From: Chloroflexota bacterium
Lineage (GTDB): Bacteria > Chloroflexota > Anaerolineae > Anaerolineales > Villigracilaceae
DNA: 10,000 bases
Assembly (NCBI GenBank): GCA_020217065.1
Contig: JAIWOB010000121.1
Span: forward strand, 1 to 10,000
Direction: 5' to 3'
The notes under the pieces are model-generated. The model was not told where the DNA came from. It ran no database searches and saw only the letters and a list, made by a program, of their open reading frames with translations. Both the position numbers and the translations under genes were made by a program. This document shows, in pieces, positions 1,113 to 7,198 of this stretch (position 1 is its first letter; the number at the start of each line of letters is the position of its first letter).

Positions 1113-2870
1113 ATGACAGAACAATCATCAGAATCAAAAGTTGAAATCGGCGGCAACATCGAAGGCGGAACCGTCATCGTGGGAAACCACAACACAGTGA
1201 ACAATATCCTGCCGCAGCCCAAAGAACGCGACCCCAAGCCGCTGTTCGGCTCGATTCCCGCGCGCAAGACGGAGGAGCAGTACGTCCGGCGCGGATTGGA
1301 GGACGAAGTCCGCGCGACCTTGAAGCAAGCCCGCGCCGCCGTCATCGTCAGCGGATTTGGCGGCATGGGCAAGAGCGAACTGGCGAAGCACATTGACGAA
1401 AACGCGCTGTGGGTGAACGCCAGCGGAAAAAACGCCGCCGCCATTTTGAACGAACTGCTGCAACGCTGCGACTTGAACCTGCCGGACGCTTCGGACGCGC
1501 AAAAACTCGCCCGCCTGCGCGAGCTCTTCCTTCGTCAATATCCCGATTCGCTGGTGGTGTTGGACGACGTGCGCGACGCCGCCGTCAGCCCGCTGCTGGA
1601 CGATATTCTGGCGCTGCCGTGCAAATTCCTGCTCACCAGCCGCCGAATCCAAATCAAGGGCATTCGCTCGCTGACGCTGGACAAGATGACCCCCGAACAA
1701 GCCTTCGAGTTGATGCGAAGAATCGTCGGGGACAAACTGATTCGCCCCGAAGCCGAAACCGCGCAAAAAATTGCCGAGCGCGTCAAATTCAACCCGCTGG
1801 GATTGGAGATTTGCGCCCGCTGGGTCTGGCAGCAACAGCACGGATTAAATCCGTTTGCCCAATTTTATAAGAACACCGAAAAGGATTTTCAAAAATTGAA
1901 AGCCGAAGGCGACGAACGCTGGAACTTGAATTTTGTCTTCGACGTGAGTTACAACGACCTGGACGAAGCCGACCAAAAGCGCTTCAGGCAATTAGCCGTC
2001 TTTGCGCCGACGGGATTCAGCCCGCAAGCCGCCGCCGCTGTGTGGGATATGGACATAAGCGAAGCCGAGAGCGCGCTGGAACGCTTTTTGAACCTCTCTT
2101 TGATACAGGCGGTAAAAGGCACAGAGAACCGTTACCGCCTGCACGACCTGTTGGACGAATACGCCGCGCTGAAATTGAAAGAAGCAGGCGAAGAAGAAGC
2201 AGCCCAAACCGCGCTGGCAAACTGGCTGATTGAATTATTTGGCAAACGTTACCATGTAAAAACTGAAAGCATCCCTGTAATTGCGCCAGAATTTGATAAC
2301 CTTGCCAAATCCTGCGAGTGGGTGCTCAAAAACTCCAAAGGCGCCTTGCTCGCTTTGCTCGCGACGAAACCTCGCAACTGGCTGTTCAACTACTTCCGCC
2401 AGATGAGCGATTGGCTGCGCTGGCTCAACGGCGCGCTGCCCCTGCTCGGCGAAAATGAAAAACGTCTCAAAGCGGATGCGCTTCAATCCATCGGCGACGT
2501 GCAGCAATTTCGAGATGAGCGGGACGCCGCGCTGGAAAGTTACAACGAAGCCTTGAAACTCTTCCGCCAAGTTGGGGCGAAATTGGGCGAAGCCAACGTG
2601 CTGGCGGCATTAAGCCGCATGATGGTTTCAAGCGGGGAAATAGAAAAAGCGGAAGCGCAAATGGCGGAAATCATCCAAATCCGCCGCGCCTTGCAAGATA
2701 TTTACAGCGAAGGCGCGGACTACGGAAACTTTGCGATAGCGTTGTTGAACAGCGGGCGGAAACAAAAGGCAAAGGAATACGCGCTGAAAGCCCGCCCGAT
2801 TTTTGAAAAGATTCAATTGCCCGCCATTGTGGAAATGATGGACAGAGTCATCGCCGCGTGCGAGGGTTAA
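1113..2870 (+). CDS. STAND/NB-ARC ATPase with C-terminal TPR repeats (NLR-like)
   Basis: This 585-aa protein is a signal-transduction ATPase with an NB-ARC core. Walker A is GFGGMGKS (81-88) and Walker B is LVVLDDV (147-153). A sensor Arg lies in FLLTSRR (172-178), the GxP-like motif is NPLGLEI (227-233), and an MHD-type motif, RLHDLLDEY, is at 342-350. Three TPR-like repeats lie at about 453-487, 493-527 and 534-568 and would act as the sensor or oligomerisation arm. There is no N-terminal effector domain. Residues 9-32 instead carry a Gly/Asn-rich motif (IGGNIEGGTVIVGNHNTV) resembling bacterial amyloid signalling motifs. Proteins of this class can act as NLR-like defence switches that oligomerise on detecting a trigger. 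The gene starts 35 bp after the HepT-like gene, with an AGGTGA site about 5 bases before the ATG, so co-transcription is likely. Family assignment is firm; the defence role is inferred. Confidence 0.88.
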   Translation: MTEQSSESKVEIGGNIEGGTVIVGNHNTVNNILPQPKERDPKPLFGSIPARKTEEQYVRRGLEDEVRATLKQARAAVIVSGFGGMGKSELAKHIDENALWVNASGKNAAAILNELLQRCDLNLPDASDAQKLARLRELFLRQYPDSLVVLDDVRDAAVSPLLDDILALPCKFLLTSRRIQIKGIRSLTLDKMTPEQAFELMRRIVGDKLIRPEAETAQKIAERVKFNPLGLEICARWVWQQQHGLNPFAQFYKNTEKDFQKLKAEGDERWNLNFVFDVSYNDLDEADQKRFRQLAVFAPTGFSPQAAAAVWDMDISEAESALERFLNLSLIQAVKGTENRYRLHDLLDEYAALKLKEAGEEEAAQTALANWLIELFGKRYHVKTESIPVIAPEFDNLAKSCEWVLKNSKGALLALLATKPRNWLFNYFRQMSDWLRWLNGALPLLGENEKRLKADALQSIGDVQQFRDERDAALESYNEALKLFRQVGAKLGEANVLAALSRMMVSSGEIEKAEAQMAEIIQIRRALQDIYSEGADYGNFAIALLNSGRKQKAKEYALKARPIFEKIQLPAIVEMMDRVIAACEG

Positions 2871-2936: not shown

Positions 2937-4805
2937 TTAATCCGCCGCCACAGATTCGCCTGCCATCACTTCCTTTTCTTTCAAAACATCAGCCGCCTCA
3001 TCGTCGGAAACCCCATACGCCGCCTCCAACTCGTGGCGGAACTGCCGGGTATACAACCGGTAATAATGTCCGCGCCGTTTGAGCAGCTCGGCGTGCGTTC
3101 CCTGCTCGGCAATCCTCCCGTTCTCGATGACCAGAATGCGGTCCGCGCGGCGGATGGTGCTTAAGCGGTGGGCGATGACGAAAGACGTGCGCCCCCGCAT
3201 CAGGGCTTCCATGCCCTTTTGAATCCGCGCCTCGGTCAGCGTATCCACCGAGGAGGTCGCCTCGTCCATGATGAAGAGTTCGGGGCGGGCGAGGGCGGCG
3301 CGGGCAAGCGAAATCAACTGCTTTTGTCCCACCGAAAGCAGGCTGCCGCTTTCGCCCACGTTTTGCTCATAGCCCTTTTCCAGCGTTACGATGAAATCGT
3401 GCGCGCCGGCAATCTTGGCGGCCTCCTCCACCTCCGCGTCGCTGGCTTCCAGCCGTCCGTAGCGGATGTTCTCGCGCACCGTCCCGCTGAACAAATGCGG
3501 GGTTTGCAGCACAATGCCAATCTTGTTGTGGATGGATTCCAGCGTGTAATCCATGTAATCCCTGCCGTTGATGCGGATGACGCCCTTGCGCGGCTCGTAG
3601 AAGCGGCAGAGCAGATTGACGATGGTGGACTTGCCGCCGCCGGTGGGACCCACCAGCGCAATCATCTCGCCGGGATTGACCTTGAGCGTGAAGTCGGTTA
3701 GCACCGGCTTGCGGTCTTCGTAATAGAAATCCACATGGTCGAATTCGATTTCGCCAAGCAGGGTCCTCGCCTCCACCGCGCCGGGGCGGTTGTGGACCTC
3801 GGGCGGGGTATCCGCCAATTTGAAAATTCGCTCCGCCGAGGCGACGCTGTGCTGCATTTCGGAATAGACCCGCGCCAAATCCTGAATGGGCCACATCATG
3901 AAGGTCAGGTACGAGACGAAAGCCTGAATCCCGCCGATGGTCATCAGCCCCAGTTCGATTTGCAAGCCGCCGTAACCGACGATGAATCCCAGCGCGAGGG
4001 CGGCAATCAACTGGACGGTGGGCAGGAAGAGCGCGGAGAGCCACGCGGCGCGGTACGAGGCGCGGTACATGGCGGAGGTCAGCCCTTGAAATTCGCGGGT
4101 GTTTTCGTCTTCGCGCCCCAGCGCCTTGACCACGCGAGTCCCCTGAAAATTTTCGTTGTACGCGCCCGTAATTTTGCTGTTGGCGCGGCGCGAGATGCGG
4201 AACTGCTCCAGAATCCGCTTGCGGAACTCGACGGCAATCCACATCATGACGGGGATGATGGTGAAGACAATCAGCGCCAGTTTCCAGTTGATGACCAGCA
4301 TGAAAATCGTGGAGGAGGCGATGTTCATCACCGCCCAGGTCGTGTCCACGATGCCCCAGGTCAACAGGTCCGAGACGCGCCCCGTATCCGAGGTGACGCG
4401 GGCAATCATGCGCCCGACGGCGTTTTGGGCGTAGTACGAGAGCGAGAGTTCCTGCAAATGGTTGAAGAGCATTTTCCGCAGGTCGTATTGAATCCGCTCG
4501 CCAAGCACGCCCGCGAGGTAGATGAAGGTGAACACCGCGCCCGCCTGAATCACAATCAGCCCGCCGTAGATTTCAGCGAGTTGTATCAGCCTGTCTTTAT
4601 CGCCGAGGGCGATGCCCTGGTCAATGAACTGCTTGCTGAGGTAGGTGAAGTAAGCGTCCAGTCCCGACACGAGGGCGATGGTGACGAAGAATCCCGCCGC
4701 CCATTTCCAATGCGGTTTGAGCAGCCCGCCGATTCTTTTCAGCACGGGCAGGGTCAGTTGTGAGGTGAATTCTTCTTCTTCGAGTTCGATGAGTTCGTCG
4801 CTCAT
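2937..4805 (-). CDS. ABC exporter half-transporter (catalytic-Glu subunit)
   Basis: This 622-aa protein is a fused membrane/ATPase half-transporter of the type IV (MsbA/multidrug) exporter class. About six hydrophobic segments lie in residues 34-315. The nucleotide-binding domain (about 350-590) has Walker A GPTGGGKST (386-394), Q-loop Q434, Walker B LFIMDEATS with D514 and catalytic E515, and H-loop H546. The signature motif is LSVGQ (490-494) instead of LSGGQ. The mirrored defect in the other half (see 5055-6905) marks them as the two subunits of a heterodimer with one consensus and one degenerate ATP site, as in TM287/288 or BmrCD. The substrate cannot be read from sequence; drug or lipid export is typical. 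An acidic N-terminus (ELIELEEEEF) and a charged C-terminal tail extend it slightly. A GGAGA site lies 9 to 10 bases before the ATG, which overlaps the preceding stub's stop (ATGA). Confidence 0.93.
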   Translation of the reverse strand: MSDELIELEEEEFTSQLTLPVLKRIGGLLKPHWKWAAGFFVTIALVSGLDAYFTYLSKQFIDQGIALGDKDRLIQLAEIYGGLIVIQAGAVFTFIYLAGVLGERIQYDLRKMLFNHLQELSLSYYAQNAVGRMIARVTSDTGRVSDLLTWGIVDTTWAVMNIASSTIFMLVINWKLALIVFTIIPVMMWIAVEFRKRILEQFRISRRANSKITGAYNENFQGTRVVKALGREDENTREFQGLTSAMYRASYRAAWLSALFLPTVQLIAALALGFIVGYGGLQIELGLMTIGGIQAFVSYLTFMMWPIQDLARVYSEMQHSVASAERIFKLADTPPEVHNRPGAVEARTLLGEIEFDHVDFYYEDRKPVLTDFTLKVNPGEMIALVGPTGGGKSTIVNLLCRFYEPRKGVIRINGRDYMDYTLESIHNKIGIVLQTPHLFSGTVRENIRYGRLEASDAEVEEAAKIAGAHDFIVTLEKGYEQNVGESGSLLSVGQKQLISLARAALARPELFIMDEATSSVDTLTEARIQKGMEALMRGRTSFVIAHRLSTIRRADRILVIENGRIAEQGTHAELLKRRGHYYRLYTRQFRHELEAAYGVSDDEAADVLKEKEVMAGESVAAD

Positions 4806-5065
4806 GGCGTGGTTCTCCGTGGTAATGGTGAAAGAGGGAAAATTATGAAATCAGAATCAGACTTGGCGCGTTGGCTTTCACGGAATTGCGCGCCGACAGA
4901 AGTCCCGGACCGCAAGACCTGTTTGCCCAATGTCTGTGCAACAACCGCCTTCGGCAGGCTCGAATACATGCGTACAATTCGCAAGGCAAAATTCGTCATC
5001 CGTTCTCTCAAGTCGTTTTGATTCTCATCCATTTCTCGCCGCTTCTTTCTGAATTCATCCTTCAT
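4802..5065 (-). CDS. Truncated four-helix-bundle protein (S23-like) remnant
   Basis: Residues 18-74 of this 87-aa ORF match the N-terminal half of the four-helix-bundle family related to the 23S rRNA intervening-sequence protein. The landmarks are ERMTNFALRIVRMYSSLP, then QVLRSGTSVGAQFRESQRAKSDSDFI. Full members run to roughly 115-125 aa and continue with a helix containing KEA-ET-YWL. Here the similarity stops right after DFI, and 13 unrelated residues lead to a stop that overlaps the ABC start. The 3' half is absent, with no room for it in another frame. It is probably a decayed gene caught between the exporter halves. Its reading frame still overlaps the upstream gene by 11 bp and the downstream gene by 4 bp, so it may survive as a coupling bridge. 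An internal ATG at 5032 is an alternative start. Whether any protein is stable is unknown. Confidence 0.62.
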   Translation of the reverse strand: MKDEFRKKRREMDENQNDLRERMTNFALRIVRMYSSLPKAVVAQTLGKQVLRSGTSVGAQFRESQRAKSDSDFIIFPLSPLPRRTTP

Positions 5066-5074
5066 AATTCAGAA
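5047..5074. repeat. 9-bp inverted repeat at the ABC stop / stub start
   Basis: TTCTGAATT (5047-5055) and AATTCAGAA (5066-5074) are perfect inverse complements around a 10-base loop. They span the stop codon of the first ABC gene and the start codon of the four-helix-bundle stub. In the mRNA this hairpin would cover the stub's start, which could limit its translation. It could also mark an insertion junction. Confidence 0.55.
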
Positions 5075-6905
5075 TTTCTTTTTCCAGCTCCTCGTCAATC
5101 CTGGTTTGGATGTCGTAAATTCTGCGATACATGCCGTCGGCGTCCTTCAACAGCTCTTCGTGCGTTCCCATTTGCGCGACCTCGCCCTTATCCAAAACGA
5201 GAATCAAATCGGCGTTCATCACCGACTGGATGCGGTGCGCGATGATGAATGTCGTGCGGTCTTTCATCAGCGCGTTCAGCGCTTCGCGGATTTCGGCTTC
5301 GGTCTCGGTGTCCACCGAGGAAGTCGAATCGTCCAAAATCAAAATGCGCGGATTCTTCAACAGAGTGCGGGCAATCGCCACGCGCTGTTTCTGTCCGCCG
5401 GAGAGGGTCACGCCCTTTTCGCCGACCAGGGTGTTGTAACCGTCGGGAAAACCCATAATCACGTCATGCACGGCGGCGGCTTTTGCGGCGCGCTCCACTT
5501 CCTCATTCGGCGCGTCGCGCCCCACGCCGTAGCGGATATTCTCGCGGATGGAGCGGCTGAACAAAAACGGCTCCTGCTCCACGATACCGATTTGCTGCCG
5601 CAGGTACGAGCGCGAGTAATCCTTCAACTCCACGCCGTCGAGCAGAATTCGTCCGCCTGTGTATTCGTGAAAGCGCGGCAGCAGGTTGACCAGCGAGGTC
5701 TTGCCCGACCCCGTGGAACCCAGCAGGGCGACCGCCTGTCCGGGTTTGACGTGGAAAGAGATATTTTTGAGCGCCTCGGATTTCCCGTCCGAATACATGA
5801 ACGAGACGTTTTCGAAGCGGATATCTCCCTTCGCCGGTCCCTTGGGCTGATGCCTGCCGTCGAAGAGCGGTTCGCGCTGCTGCTTGACCACTTCCATCAG
5901 GCGTCCGTACGAGACCATGCCCGTCGAAGTCTGCACGATGATGCGTCCCAGGTTGCGGATGGGCCAGATGAGCCAGACCACCAGTCCCGCGTAGGCGATG
6001 TACTTGCCGAGGGTGATGTCGCCGTCAATCGCCATGAACGCGCCATAGATGAAGCCAAACAGCATTTGGAATCCCAGCGCGATGTCGGAGAGCGGCCAGA
6101 ACATCGAGTGCATGAAAAGCAGAATCTTGCCTTTCAGGTACTTGCCCCAGTTGTCCTTCTCAAACTTCTTCTTTTCGTAGTCCTGCCGCGCAAAGGCTTT
6201 GACCACGCGCACGCCCGTCAGGTTTTCCTGCAAGGTGGTGGAAAGCACGGCTTCCTGCGCCTGGTATTCCTCGTAAGCCTTTGTCACTTTCTTGAAGAAC
6301 CAAATCGAAACCAGCAGGATGACGGGGATGACGACCACCGAAACCAGCGCCAATTCCACGTTGAGGTTGAGGATGGCGATGAAGTTGATGACGAAGAGCA
6401 GGACGATGCGTCCCACGCCGATGGCTTGTTCGCTGAAGAAGCGGCGCAGGGCGTCCACGTCGGAGGTGACGCGCTCGATGAGGTCGCCTGTGGGAGTGAC
6501 GGCGTGATACGAAAAACTCAAGCGCTGGATGTGGTCGAAGAGAAAGTCGCGCAGACGGCGGGTGATGCCTTCGGCGGTGTACGCCGCCAGCCGTCCCGAA
6601 AGGAAGGCGAATCCGCCCTCGACGGCTGCCAGCCCGATGAATCCCGCCCCAATCCAAACCAGGGTGGAGGTCAGCGAGCCGCCGAGGTATTGTTTTTGAG
6701 TCAACACATCGTCTGCGAAGAACCGCAGGAGGATATAGGTATAGGTCTTCGCCAAAGCGGAAATCGCCAGCGAAATAGTCGCGGCAATGTACGGCAGGCG
6801 GTAATCGGACATCATCTGCCACAACCCTTTGAGGCGGTTGGCTTGCAGGGTGCGGCGGAAATCGAAGGTGAGAGCGGGTTCGTAAGGTGGGTGTAGTGTG
6901 GCCAT
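5055..6905 (-). CDS. ABC exporter half-transporter (degenerate-site subunit)
   Basis: This 616-aa protein is the first gene of the exporter operon and the partner of the half encoded at 2937-4805. A six-helix transmembrane domain fills about residues 35-330. The ATPase domain has Walker A GSTGSGKTS (396-404), Q444, a canonical LSGGQ signature (501-505), Walker B ILILDDSTS (521-529) and H-loop H557. The residue after the Walker B Asp is D526 rather than the catalytic Glu, a change typical of the degenerate-site subunit of heterodimeric exporters. Its LSGGQ would complete the active site built by the partner's Glu. The start is placed at 6905 because GAGGA lies about 6 bases before that ATG. 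The longer frame, from 6956, would run through a palindromic repeat in the leader. Expression is probably controlled by the upstream attenuator. The substrate is unknown. Confidence 0.93.
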   Translation of the reverse strand: MATLHPPYEPALTFDFRRTLQANRLKGLWQMMSDYRLPYIAATISLAISALAKTYTYILLRFFADDVLTQKQYLGGSLTSTLVWIGAGFIGLAAVEGGFAFLSGRLAAYTAEGITRRLRDFLFDHIQRLSFSYHAVTPTGDLIERVTSDVDALRRFFSEQAIGVGRIVLLFVINFIAILNLNVELALVSVVVIPVILLVSIWFFKKVTKAYEEYQAQEAVLSTTLQENLTGVRVVKAFARQDYEKKKFEKDNWGKYLKGKILLFMHSMFWPLSDIALGFQMLFGFIYGAFMAIDGDITLGKYIAYAGLVVWLIWPIRNLGRIIVQTSTGMVSYGRLMEVVKQQREPLFDGRHQPKGPAKGDIRFENVSFMYSDGKSEALKNISFHVKPGQAVALLGSTGSGKTSLVNLLPRFHEYTGGRILLDGVELKDYSRSYLRQQIGIVEQEPFLFSRSIRENIRYGVGRDAPNEEVERAAKAAAVHDVIMGFPDGYNTLVGEKGVTLSGGQKQRVAIARTLLKNPRILILDDSTSSVDTETEAEIREALNALMKDRTTFIIAHRIQSVMNADLILVLDKGEVAQMGTHEELLKDADGMYRRIYDIQTRIDEELEKEILNYEG

Positions 6906-6920
6906 GGCTTTCCTCGTAAT

Positions 6921-6984
6921 AAACCTGACAGGTCTTATTAAATCGGTTTCCATCATTGGCGTTTCGTGGAGACCTGTCAGGTTT
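6921..6984. repeat. Palindromic repeat pair in the ABC leader
   Basis: AAACCTGACAGGTCT (6921-6935) and its exact inverse complement (6970-6984) form a perfect 15-bp inverted repeat with a 34-base spacer. Both arms are copies of the unit found at 2893-2929, with the central A/T base varying. Each arm is itself near-palindromic (ACCTG-W-CAGGT). In the ABC mRNA the hairpin lies after the terminator and about 15 bases before the first start codon, so it could affect translation initiation. Confidence 0.8.
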
Positions 6985-6991
6985 TGGCAAC

Positions 6992-7021
6992 AAAAAAGGC
7001 TGCGGCGGTTGCGCCACAGCC
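6992..7021 (-). terminator. Intrinsic terminator in ABC operon leader (attenuator)
   Basis: Read on the minus strand, GGCTGTGGCG (7021-7012) pairs with CGCCGCAGCC (7007-6998) through 10 bp with one G-U, around the tetraloop CAAC. Six T residues (6997-6992) follow at once. This is a textbook Rho-independent terminator. No complete minus-strand gene lies upstream of it within the same transcript. The transcript from the promoter at 7169-7198 would meet it about 170 bases in, before the first ABC gene, so it is read as an attenuator. Confidence 0.87.
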
Positions 7022-7137
7022 CAAAACAAACAGGGGACAGAAAGAGACCTAGTTTCGGTCTACAGGCGCACTCCGAGAAAGTAATTTGCCAGCCGCGCTG
7101 GGAACAATGTAGAGTGTGTTGGACATCAAGAGTGCGC
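7010..7137 (-). promoter_or_regulatory. Candidate ribosome-mediated attenuator with exclusive pairings
   Basis: On the minus strand, four segments can pair alternately. Segment 1, GCGCACTC (7137-7130), lies between the leader-peptide ribosome site and its ATG. It complements segment 2, GAGTGCGC (7073-7066), inside the leader ORF. Part of segment 2, TGCGCC (7070-7065), complements segment 3, GGCGCA (7015-7010), which overlaps the terminator's left arm and loop. Segment 3 with segment 4 forms the terminator. If 1 pairs with 2, the terminator is free to form. If a ribosome held at the leader start covers 1, then 2 can pair with 3 and permit read-through. The pairings are directly visible; the mechanism is inferred by analogy with leaders such as bmrB and ermK. 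The 2:3 pairing is only 6 bp. Confidence 0.55.
7049..7126 (-). CDS. 25-aa leader peptide (upstream ORF) of the ABC operon
   Basis: A short ORF begins MSNTLYIVPS, ends VDRN and stops with TAG at 7051-7049. It is preceded by AAAGGAG (7143-7137), a near-perfect Shine-Dalgarno sequence, 10 bases before the ATG. It lies between the predicted operon promoter and the intrinsic terminator, and its codons 18-21 make one arm of the alternative hairpins. There is no run of a single amino acid's codons as in amino-acid operons. Sensing of ribosome inhibition, or of the peptide itself, is therefore more likely than starvation for one amino acid. The peptide is recognised by position and ribosome site only; I know no homologue. 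Confidence 0.55.
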   Translation of the reverse strand: MSNTLYIVPSAAGKLLSRSAPVDRN

Positions 7138-7168
7138 TCCTTTCTTTAGAATTTGTCTTGCGGGGTCG

Positions 7169-7198
7169 AGTTTACACCTTGCGCTTGAAAAGTGTCAA
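7169..7198 (-). promoter_or_regulatory. Sigma-70-type promoter of the ABC exporter operon
   Basis: On the minus strand, a perfect -35 box TTGACA (7198-7193) is followed after 18 bases by TAAACT (7174-7169), which matches 4 of 6 bases of the -10 consensus. Transcription would begin near 7162. That gives a leader of roughly 255 bases before the first ABC gene, containing the leader ORF, the terminator and the palindromic repeat. Confidence 0.6.

Follow-up and report, generated by a model that had tools for sequence, protein, structure and literature searches.

A putative ribosome-mediated transcription attenuator before an ABC exporter and other genes in Anaerolineae

Ribosome-mediated attenuators of resistance genes are, to our knowledge, known mostly from Bacillota, one gene at a time. 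The locus described here raises the question of whether such a switch exists in the Chloroflexota, what it might sense, and whether it belongs to one exporter or to many genes. The window (the whole 10,000-nt stretch of DNA analysed, from a Chloroflexota bacterium of the order Anaerolineales) carries on its minus strand, in this order, a promoter, a Shine-Dalgarno (SD) sequence, a leader ORF, a hairpin at the leader stop codon, a terminator and two ABC exporter subunits (Table 1). A preliminary description had read this arrangement as the attenuator of a heterodimeric exporter, similar to the bmrB leader of the Bacillus subtilis bmrCD genes and possibly undescribed in this lineage. In bmrB/bmrCD, translation of the leader is needed, and chloramphenicol, erythromycin and lincomycin induce, as found by experiment (available text of PMC4191407).

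Table 1. Positions of the features of the window that are discussed in the text.
Feature	Position	Strand	Details
Sigma-70-type promoter, TTGACA-N18-TAAACT	7169..7198	-	TTGACA 7198-7193, 18-nt spacer, TAAACT 7174-7169
Shine-Dalgarno of leader ORF, AAAGGAG	7137..7143	-	read in the sequence
Segment 1 (GCGCACTC)	7130..7137	-	between SD and start codon; pairs with segment 2
Leader ORF, 25 codons + TAG, MSNTLYIVPSAAGKLLSRSAPVDRN	7049..7126	-	ATG 7126 to TAG 7049
Segment 2 (GAGTGCGCC)	7065..7073	-	alternative partner of segment 1 or 3
Small hairpin AGACCGAAACTAGGTCT (AGACC..GGTCT) enclosing the leader stop codon	7045..7061	-	
Segment 3	7010..7021	-	terminator 5' arm and first loop bases; antiterminator partner of segment 2
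Intrinsic terminator	6992..7021	-	10-bp stem 7021-7012/7007-6998, loop CAAC, U6 (T6 6997-6992)
Segment 4	7007-6998	-	terminator 3' arm
ABC exporter subunit A	5055..6905	-	PF00664, PF00005; likely start ATG 6905
Four-helix-bundle / 23S rRNA intervening-sequence-type protein	4802-5065	-	PF05635, TIGR02436; between exporter subunits
ABC exporter subunit B	2937..4805	-	PF00664, PF00005
Dispersed palindromic repeat around AAGACCTGACAGGTTT	2893-2929 and 6920-6985		
NB-ARC/TPR protein	1113-2870		adjoins the two small MNT/HEPN-like ORFs

The promoter, a 10/12 match, has the top score among the promoter-like sites listed for the window, and the terminator ranks first in the list of its predicted terminators. 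Both lie where the preliminary description placed them, as do the SD, the 25-codon leader ORF and three mutually exclusive pairings: segment 1 with segment 2 (1:2; GCGCACTC 7137-7130 with GAGTGCGC 7073-7066, 8 bp), segment 2 with segment 3 (2:3; TGCGCC 7070-7065 with GGCGCA 7015-7010, only 6 bp), and the terminator stem itself (3:4). The stop-codon hairpin (7061-7045) is absent from that description. The 171-nt RNA of the window folds at -60.8 kcal/mol, versus -44.8 (sd 3.8) for shuffled sequences (z -4.2; 1 of 200 shuffles as good). The arrangement is the one expected of a ribosome-mediated attenuator: the terminator lies between promoter and gene, antiterminator and anti-antiterminator exclude each other, and an SD-led ORF overlaps the switching segments.

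A further pairing proposed around the terminator, GTTTTGG (7027-7021) with CCAAAAC (6987-6981), exists in the window but is not conserved. It was dropped, CCAAAA following the T-run in 1 of 27 sequences, namely the window itself (27 being those of 30 same-genus loci in which the run was located). The CCAAAAC side abuts the dispersed palindromic repeat, whose pattern AAGACCTGNCRGGTYT has 27 matches in the 1.6-Mb assembly and, reversed, none. One copy of the repeat lies between the terminator and the exporter start codon; by eye, this is also the case in some relatives (L002, L020 and L025), though not in others.

Subunits A and B look like the two halves of a heterodimer, because A carries DD instead of the expected catalytic DE and B a degenerate signature, LSVGQ, with DE present (both by eye). 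In a search of solved structures, the top matches listed for both subunits are eukaryotic ABCB proteins, and the prokaryotic ones include TM_0288 and YheI or YheH; for subunit B, the best prokaryotic chain among the matches listed is TM_0288, behind eukaryotic ABCB proteins. We take YheI/YheH to be BmrC/BmrD. A stretch similar to the small protein encoded between the subunits occupies the same place in some relatives (for example L008, L009 and L015, by eye), while others differ. Elsewhere in the window, two overlapping small ORFs on the plus strand (218-1077) resemble, by eye, an MNT-type nucleotidyltransferase and a HEPN-type partner.

Conservation was examined in 61 genomes of the same genus, every one of which has some match to subunit A, since ABC ATPases are common. 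Full-length orthologues at no less than 74% identity number 32 (the window's own included), with one more split over two contigs (G035); 30 loci were read (alignment A2, the window's own and 29 others at 76% identity or higher). Promoter, SD and leader ORF occur in 30/30 loci, with TTGACA-N18-TANNNT preceding the leader in each; AAAGGA is invariant or nearly so, and the final G of the SD is variable. The distance from the terminator to the aligned exporter coding start ranges from 19 to 187 nt (24 loci measured). A strict regular expression recognizes the terminator in 24 of the 30 loci, yet its stem cells are 100% paired in the alignment, three pairs having changed on both sides. Pairing is found in 94.6% of the cells of 1:2 and in 97.3% of those of the stop-codon hairpin, where A-U has become U-A in three sequences. 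The structure combining 1:2, the stop hairpin and 3:4 is paired in 97.5% of cells (slid controls 30-54%), with five pairs changed on both sides, a number that 0 of 500 shuffles reach.

The antiterminator structure (2:3 with the stop hairpin) is paired in 93.8% of cells in the same 30 loci (slid controls 23-51%), and the 2:3 helix itself in 91.6%, with one-sided changes only. Two-sided changes in this structure are not above controls among these close relatives (324/500 shuffles as high), and a version slid by +2 out-scores it on covariation (0.094 vs 0.070); the evidence for 2:3 comes from the wider set of leaders. The preliminary description had named absence of the leader ORF and stems from orthologues as one observation that would count against it, and had asked whether the stems covary: all 30 loci retain the element, and covariation was borne out for the structure of 1:2, stop hairpin and 3:4, though not, in its two-sided form, for 2:3 within this close set.

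The wider set comprised 170 leaders, the 30 of alignment A2 and 140 fetched loci (80 from order-wide matches and 60 from class and phylum matches, not all matches being fetched; L031-L060 were left out of tallies), and its counts are non-independent trials, as the leaders are related. In each leader, the region from SD to terminator was searched for its best ungapped duplex with the SD-proximal stretch and with the terminator 5' arm and loop. These best 1:2 and 2:3 duplexes share a stretch (overlap of at least 4 nt) in 130/170 leaders, versus 271/1700 region shuffles; overlapping duplexes are missing from 40/170 by this simple ungapped search. Inspected by eye, some of the 40 are wrong terminator calls by the script, and some may be degenerate or different. 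Both pairings covary across the 170 leaders: the base that would extend the 1:2 helix is complementary in 72 of 81 measurable leaders (50.6 expected) and that extending 2:3 in 52 of 74 (40.3 expected), with 0/5000 permutations as high in either case. The 2:3 pairing was not in the structure given to the covariance models used below. Segments 1/2/3 have also changed together between gene families: many exporters of the window type, L003 for example, have CTC/GAG/CTC, and some members of a second exporter family, such as L069 and L071, have TTC/GAA/TTC.

The stop-codon stem reaches at least 4 bp in 119/166 leaders (30% of shuffles) and at least 5 bp in 82/166 (9% of shuffles); outside the 30 close relatives the figures are 89/136 and 56/136, respectively. 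Its sequence is variable, with 5' arms GACC, CAGG, TCCT and others. A looser promoter pattern, TTGAC-N17..19-TANNNT, is present in 122 of 139 loci of the wider set, versus 0.5% of shuffles. An SD-led ORF of 14-35 codons was found by script in 166/170 loci (the exceptions being L127, L233, L237 and L256). Its frame stays open throughout segment 2 in 156 of 158 measurable leaders, compared with 46 and 71 for the other frames, and in 133/158 segment 2 is separated from the stop codon by 10 or 13 nt, a near-fixed distance which implies that a ribosome on the stop codon would lie over segment 2.

How far the element extends was assessed with two covariance models, R1 (built from the 30 same-genus loci) and R2 (built from 52 diverse matches); the genomes are mostly MAGs and related, so that the fractions given here are not independent counts. 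R1 matches 98 of 301 genomes of the order, in 41 of 112 genera, at E 0.01 or better. With a limit of E 0.001, R2 matches 86 of 346 genomes of the class, and 63 of the 86 belong to other orders. In a sample of 400 genomes of the phylum, R2 matches 30, corresponding to 30/55 genomes within the class Anaerolineae and 0/345 outside it, a split that assumes one and the same sample of 400 genomes behind the match list and the taxonomy rows (the rows that appear in both are in agreement). The filters applied in searches over 40 genomes were stricter and lose weak matches, and absence there is not proof. Among 12 genomes searched singly, six well-assembled others of the genus carry 3-5 copies each within a limit of E 0.1, their weakest copies scoring E 0.01-0.08, and two, from the order and the class, have no copies. 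The window's own incomplete genome contains a second copy (L116, G000:C8:9536-9690), located before a GNAT acetyltransferase gene.

A pattern scan of named genomes returned 58 stretches, 56 of them matched by R2. Almost all of the 56 come from genomes with the name Anaerolineae, Anaerolineales, Anaerolinea or Chloroflexi/Chloroflexota; L173 and L170, from MAGs labelled Herpetosiphon and Aquidulcis, are also matched, and these two names may not reflect lineage. Two Pseudomonas stretches (L143, L166) do not match R2 and were discarded. Rfam 15, searched with the whole window, gives no match at gathering score, and the weak matches of a further Rfam search all fall far below their gathering scores. 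Among the open-licence papers listed in our searches, none described such an element in Chloroflexota. RF01698 (Chloroflexi-1) appears in a list in the available text of PMC2864571.

The genes behind the attenuator were classified in the 140 further loci, taking as downstream gene the longest ORF with a start no more than 900 nt away in the first 80 loci, or 700 nt away in the 60 later ones; this ORF is sometimes the second gene. Such an ORF was available in 138/140 loci and was classed by its best BLAST match to Pfam-typed representatives, on which NCBIfam was also run; the resulting counts are raw tallies, and a few assignments are weak (L224, 30% over 82 aa; L247, 28%). ABC exporters account for 72/138 (45 like the window exporter, 26 of the second family, 1 other) and other drug-type ABC parts for 9 (7 DrrA-like ATPases, 2 ABC-2 permeases). 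GNAT acetyltransferases follow with 34, one by Pfam alone, and the rest are RsgA (7), RIO1 (5), RtcB (2), ABC-F (2), HAD (3), MFS (1), methyltransferase (1) and two ORFs with no family given. One ABC-F protein scores 455 bits with the NCBIfam model for ribosomal protection, above its cut-off of 380. The six GNATs of group GN5 are 535-731 nt away from the attenuator, and in L125 and other loci another GNAT precedes them. In L125, L126, L132, L241, L244 and L254 one attenuator seems to be followed by two GNAT genes, the second GNAT being different. As for the claim that the element is the attenuator of a heterodimeric exporter, it is indeed present before that exporter, but it is not a single exporter leader: it occurs class-wide, before about a dozen gene kinds.

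RtcB-family RNA ligases lie downstream of the attenuator at 59 nt in L095 and at 519 nt in L203. The leader of L095 (MILFSKAKRDRKSISSRSALVDD) is similar to leaders found in the second exporter family, as though one gene had acquired its switch as a copy from another. RIO1-domain kinases occupy this position in further orders of the class (L210 and L213 were assigned by Pfam; L215, L217 and L221 by BLAST). RsgA, RIO1 and RtcB are tied to ribosome assembly or RNA repair rather than to export. RsgA and RIO1 are, as far as we know, not resistance genes, so that a translation-stress signal wider than antibiotics is possible. The RIO1 partners, odd beside resistance genes, are a possible lead to a ribosome-maturation response in bacteria.

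Comparison across these genomes has thus shown, at the level of sequence, the element's anatomy, covariation, distribution and gene association. The conserved SD and ORF, the near-fixed stop distance, the covarying exclusive pairings, and the resistance and translation-stress genes downstream support the bmrB-like reading, and the element is very probably a ribosome-mediated transcription attenuator that senses slow ribosomes on its leader and has been replicated before many translation-stress genes. From this architecture we infer its ON/OFF logic, its inducer and a pausing role for the stop-codon hairpin. RNA polymerase would start near 7162, judging from the promoter, and transcribe segment 1, the leader ORF, segment 2, the stop-codon hairpin and the terminator in turn. 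A ribosome that reached the stop codon would cover segment 2, leaving the 3:4 terminator to form and the exporter off. If no ribosome were loaded, 1:2 would form, 3:4 would be free, and the exporter would likewise be off. A ribosome that lagged or stopped within about the first half of the leader would instead hide segment 1 and free segment 2, allowing 2:3 to form, which would block the terminator and let the exporter be transcribed. Under such logic the signal would be delayed elongation, most likely caused by ribosome-targeting antibiotics, and induction by ribosome inhibitors is what we would expect. The stop-codon hairpin may act in polymerase pausing or timing.

This scheme was modelled by masking the RNA under a ribosome in silico, with its edge assumed to lie 16 nt away from where the P-site codon starts and equilibrium folding up to the terminator loop, a calculation that ignores kinetics and pairing around the ribosome. 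Averaged over 166 leaders, the result is a clear ON window: the expected pairs between upstream sequence and segment 3 number about 12 when the P-site lies at least 13 codons before the stop, 7 at 10 codons before it and about 1 at the stop, with an intermediate 8.65 when no ribosome is present. In the window leader, the expected segment-3 pairs are 9.3-10.8 for codons 1-14, 0.1 at codon 19 and 4.4 without a ribosome; they climb back to 5.3-5.4 at codons 22-24, presumably via other pairs. Within this model, the calculation supports antitermination upon an early stall and termination upon full translation, while the branch in which no ribosome means OFF is the weakest and is supported only in part.

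What would slow the ribosome is the point on which the most serious alternative turns. Each leader may encode a drug-specific arrest peptide, with a stalling motif for one antibiotic class (as in the erm, msrD and hflXr leaders), each gene answering its own drug; we regard this as possible but somewhat doubtful. Leader bodies do vary with the target family (several GNAT leaders start M-x-M-N-K-F-Y, and many leaders of the second exporter family, exporter-2, are R/K-rich), and codons 2-9 show mild constraint (pN/pS 0.48 in 10 GNAT leaders and 0.58 in 19 exporter leaders; other frames 0.69-1.04), as do codons 10-17 of a four-sequence exporter-2 set (0.45; other frames 0.96 and 1.37). According to the mask calculation, a stall within such codons would free segment 2. 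Elsewhere, however, constraint is weak or absent: pN/pS for codons 2-17 of the 19 genus exporter leaders is 0.75, with 0.94 and 0.76 in the control frames; eight 23-codon leaders of exporter-2 give 1.05 and 0.89; and codons 10-17 give 1.29 in the exporter set and 0.84 in the GNAT set. The leader peptide is weakly constrained, and the macrolide +x+ stalling motif (R/K-x-R/K) does not occur in codons 1-13 of the window leader (MSNTLYIVPSAAGK). The most conserved part of the peptide is its C-terminus, S-R-S-A-P-V-D-R-N in the window and alike in other leaders, which raises the possibility that R-S-A-P-V-D-R works as an arrest sequence in its own right, much like the RAPP-type arrest peptides. By script, 149/166 leaders retain the S-A-P frame (the script misplaced segment 2 in a few; L010, L064, L202 and L258 also keep an S-A-P-like frame by eye), and this may reflect relatedness or function. 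RAPP-type peptides carry R-A-P-P, R-G-P-P or R-A-P-G (available text of PMC12992588), none of which is found at the C-terminus of the window leader, whose motif is R-S-A-P-x-D, and a stall there would cover segment 2, favouring termination. RSAPVDR was set aside as a functional peptide because segment 2 is written in those codons, its pairing explaining their conservation; because the same nucleotide motif also occurs in other frames, as V-R-L or A-R-L (L087, L088, L119, L131, L214, L215, L216, L232) or as E-C-A-C or Y-C-A-C (L118, L209), and in L224 and L234 even beyond a stop; and because constraint specific to the frame is lacking in codons 18-24 (0.87 in frame 0, versus 0.53 and 0.68). We consider this version highly unlikely.

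Three further alternatives were weighed. The terminator might be a constitutive one, ending a small RNA or unrelated transcript, with the exporter served by its own downstream promoter, for which a weak promoter-like site (6980-6952, 9/12) is available; the promoter-leader unit nevertheless precedes the gene in 30/30 loci despite the variable 19-187 nt between terminator and exporter, making this decidedly improbable. A riboswitch that binds a ligand or a protein, with an incidental ORF, would likewise be a structured RNA with a terminator, but no conserved core is seen beyond the pairing segments, SD, ORF and stop hairpin, the ORF is open far more often than the other frames (156/158 vs 46 and 71), and there is no Rfam match, all of which renders it very improbable. 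Amino-acid starvation attenuators of the trp/his kind have identical four-segment logic, yet a regulatory codon run is absent (within the leader body, runs of one residue extend to no more than 1 or 2 in 151/158 leaders and to 3 in 7) and the downstream genes are not biosynthetic, so that this explanation appears extremely improbable.

Read as a ribosome-mediated attenuator, the element has several known counterparts, and its logic is already known from bmrB, from rli80/hflXr and, as regards breadth of signal, from toiL. The likeness to bmrB is one of architecture by description rather than of alignment, with no shared family in Rfam, and unlike bmrB the Anaerolineae element recurs before many kinds of gene. 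The whiB7 leader feeds one transcription factor, whereas each target gene here has its own attenuator copy. In Actinobacteria, the whiB7 uORF senses several inhibitor classes and controls resistance (available text of PMC12121999). With bmrB, the window shares an ABC exporter pair, leader ORF, terminator, antiterminator and anti-antiterminator, but the bmrB terminator lies inside a 162-nt coding region, whereas that of the window starts 28 nt past the stop of the 25-codon ORF (available text of PMC4191407). The Listeria rli80/hflXr leader, which precedes a ribosome-acting resistance gene and is induced by lincomycin and erythromycin, likewise combines a short ORF with anti-antiterminator, antiterminator and terminator; it is described for a single locus, and its 14-codon ORF carries an R-L-R macrolide motif, which the window leader lacks (available text of PMC6310831). 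The toiL uORF of Escherichia coli topAI-yjhQ is a multipurpose sensor in which stalls at different places in the uORF relieve repression; it is described for one locus and acts through translation repression and Rho, in contrast to the intrinsic terminator found here (available text of PMC12121999). A predicted terminator, antiterminator and anti-antiterminator also precede the heterodimeric ABC exporter PatAB of Streptococcus pneumoniae, as here; terminator mutations raise patAB expression, the inducing signal is left unresolved in that paper, and the term 'leader peptide' does not occur in its available text (PMC4319486).

One broader reading, whose chances we judge to be about even, is a regulon that needs no regulator protein. 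A single attenuator architecture, usually with its own promoter, would have been copied to stand before about a dozen gene kinds across the Anaerolineae (two exporter families, DrrA-type ABC parts, MFS, GNATs, ABC-F, RtcB, RsgA, RIO1 kinase and others) and would read ribosome position rather than a specific arrest peptide. Slowing at any point within the leader's first half would then jointly turn on export, the protection of ribosomes and their assembly or repair, with the variable stop-codon hairpin as a polymerase pause or timing device. A class-wide Chloroflexota family of this kind would offer a sequence handle on intrinsic antibiotic-response genes in a phylum known largely from MAGs, and would illustrate how a translation-stress regulon can arise when an RNA switch is copied from gene to gene. 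The sharing of the switch by RsgA, RIO1 and RtcB with exporters and ABC-F proteins would point to ribosome assembly and RNA repair as parts of the antibiotic response.
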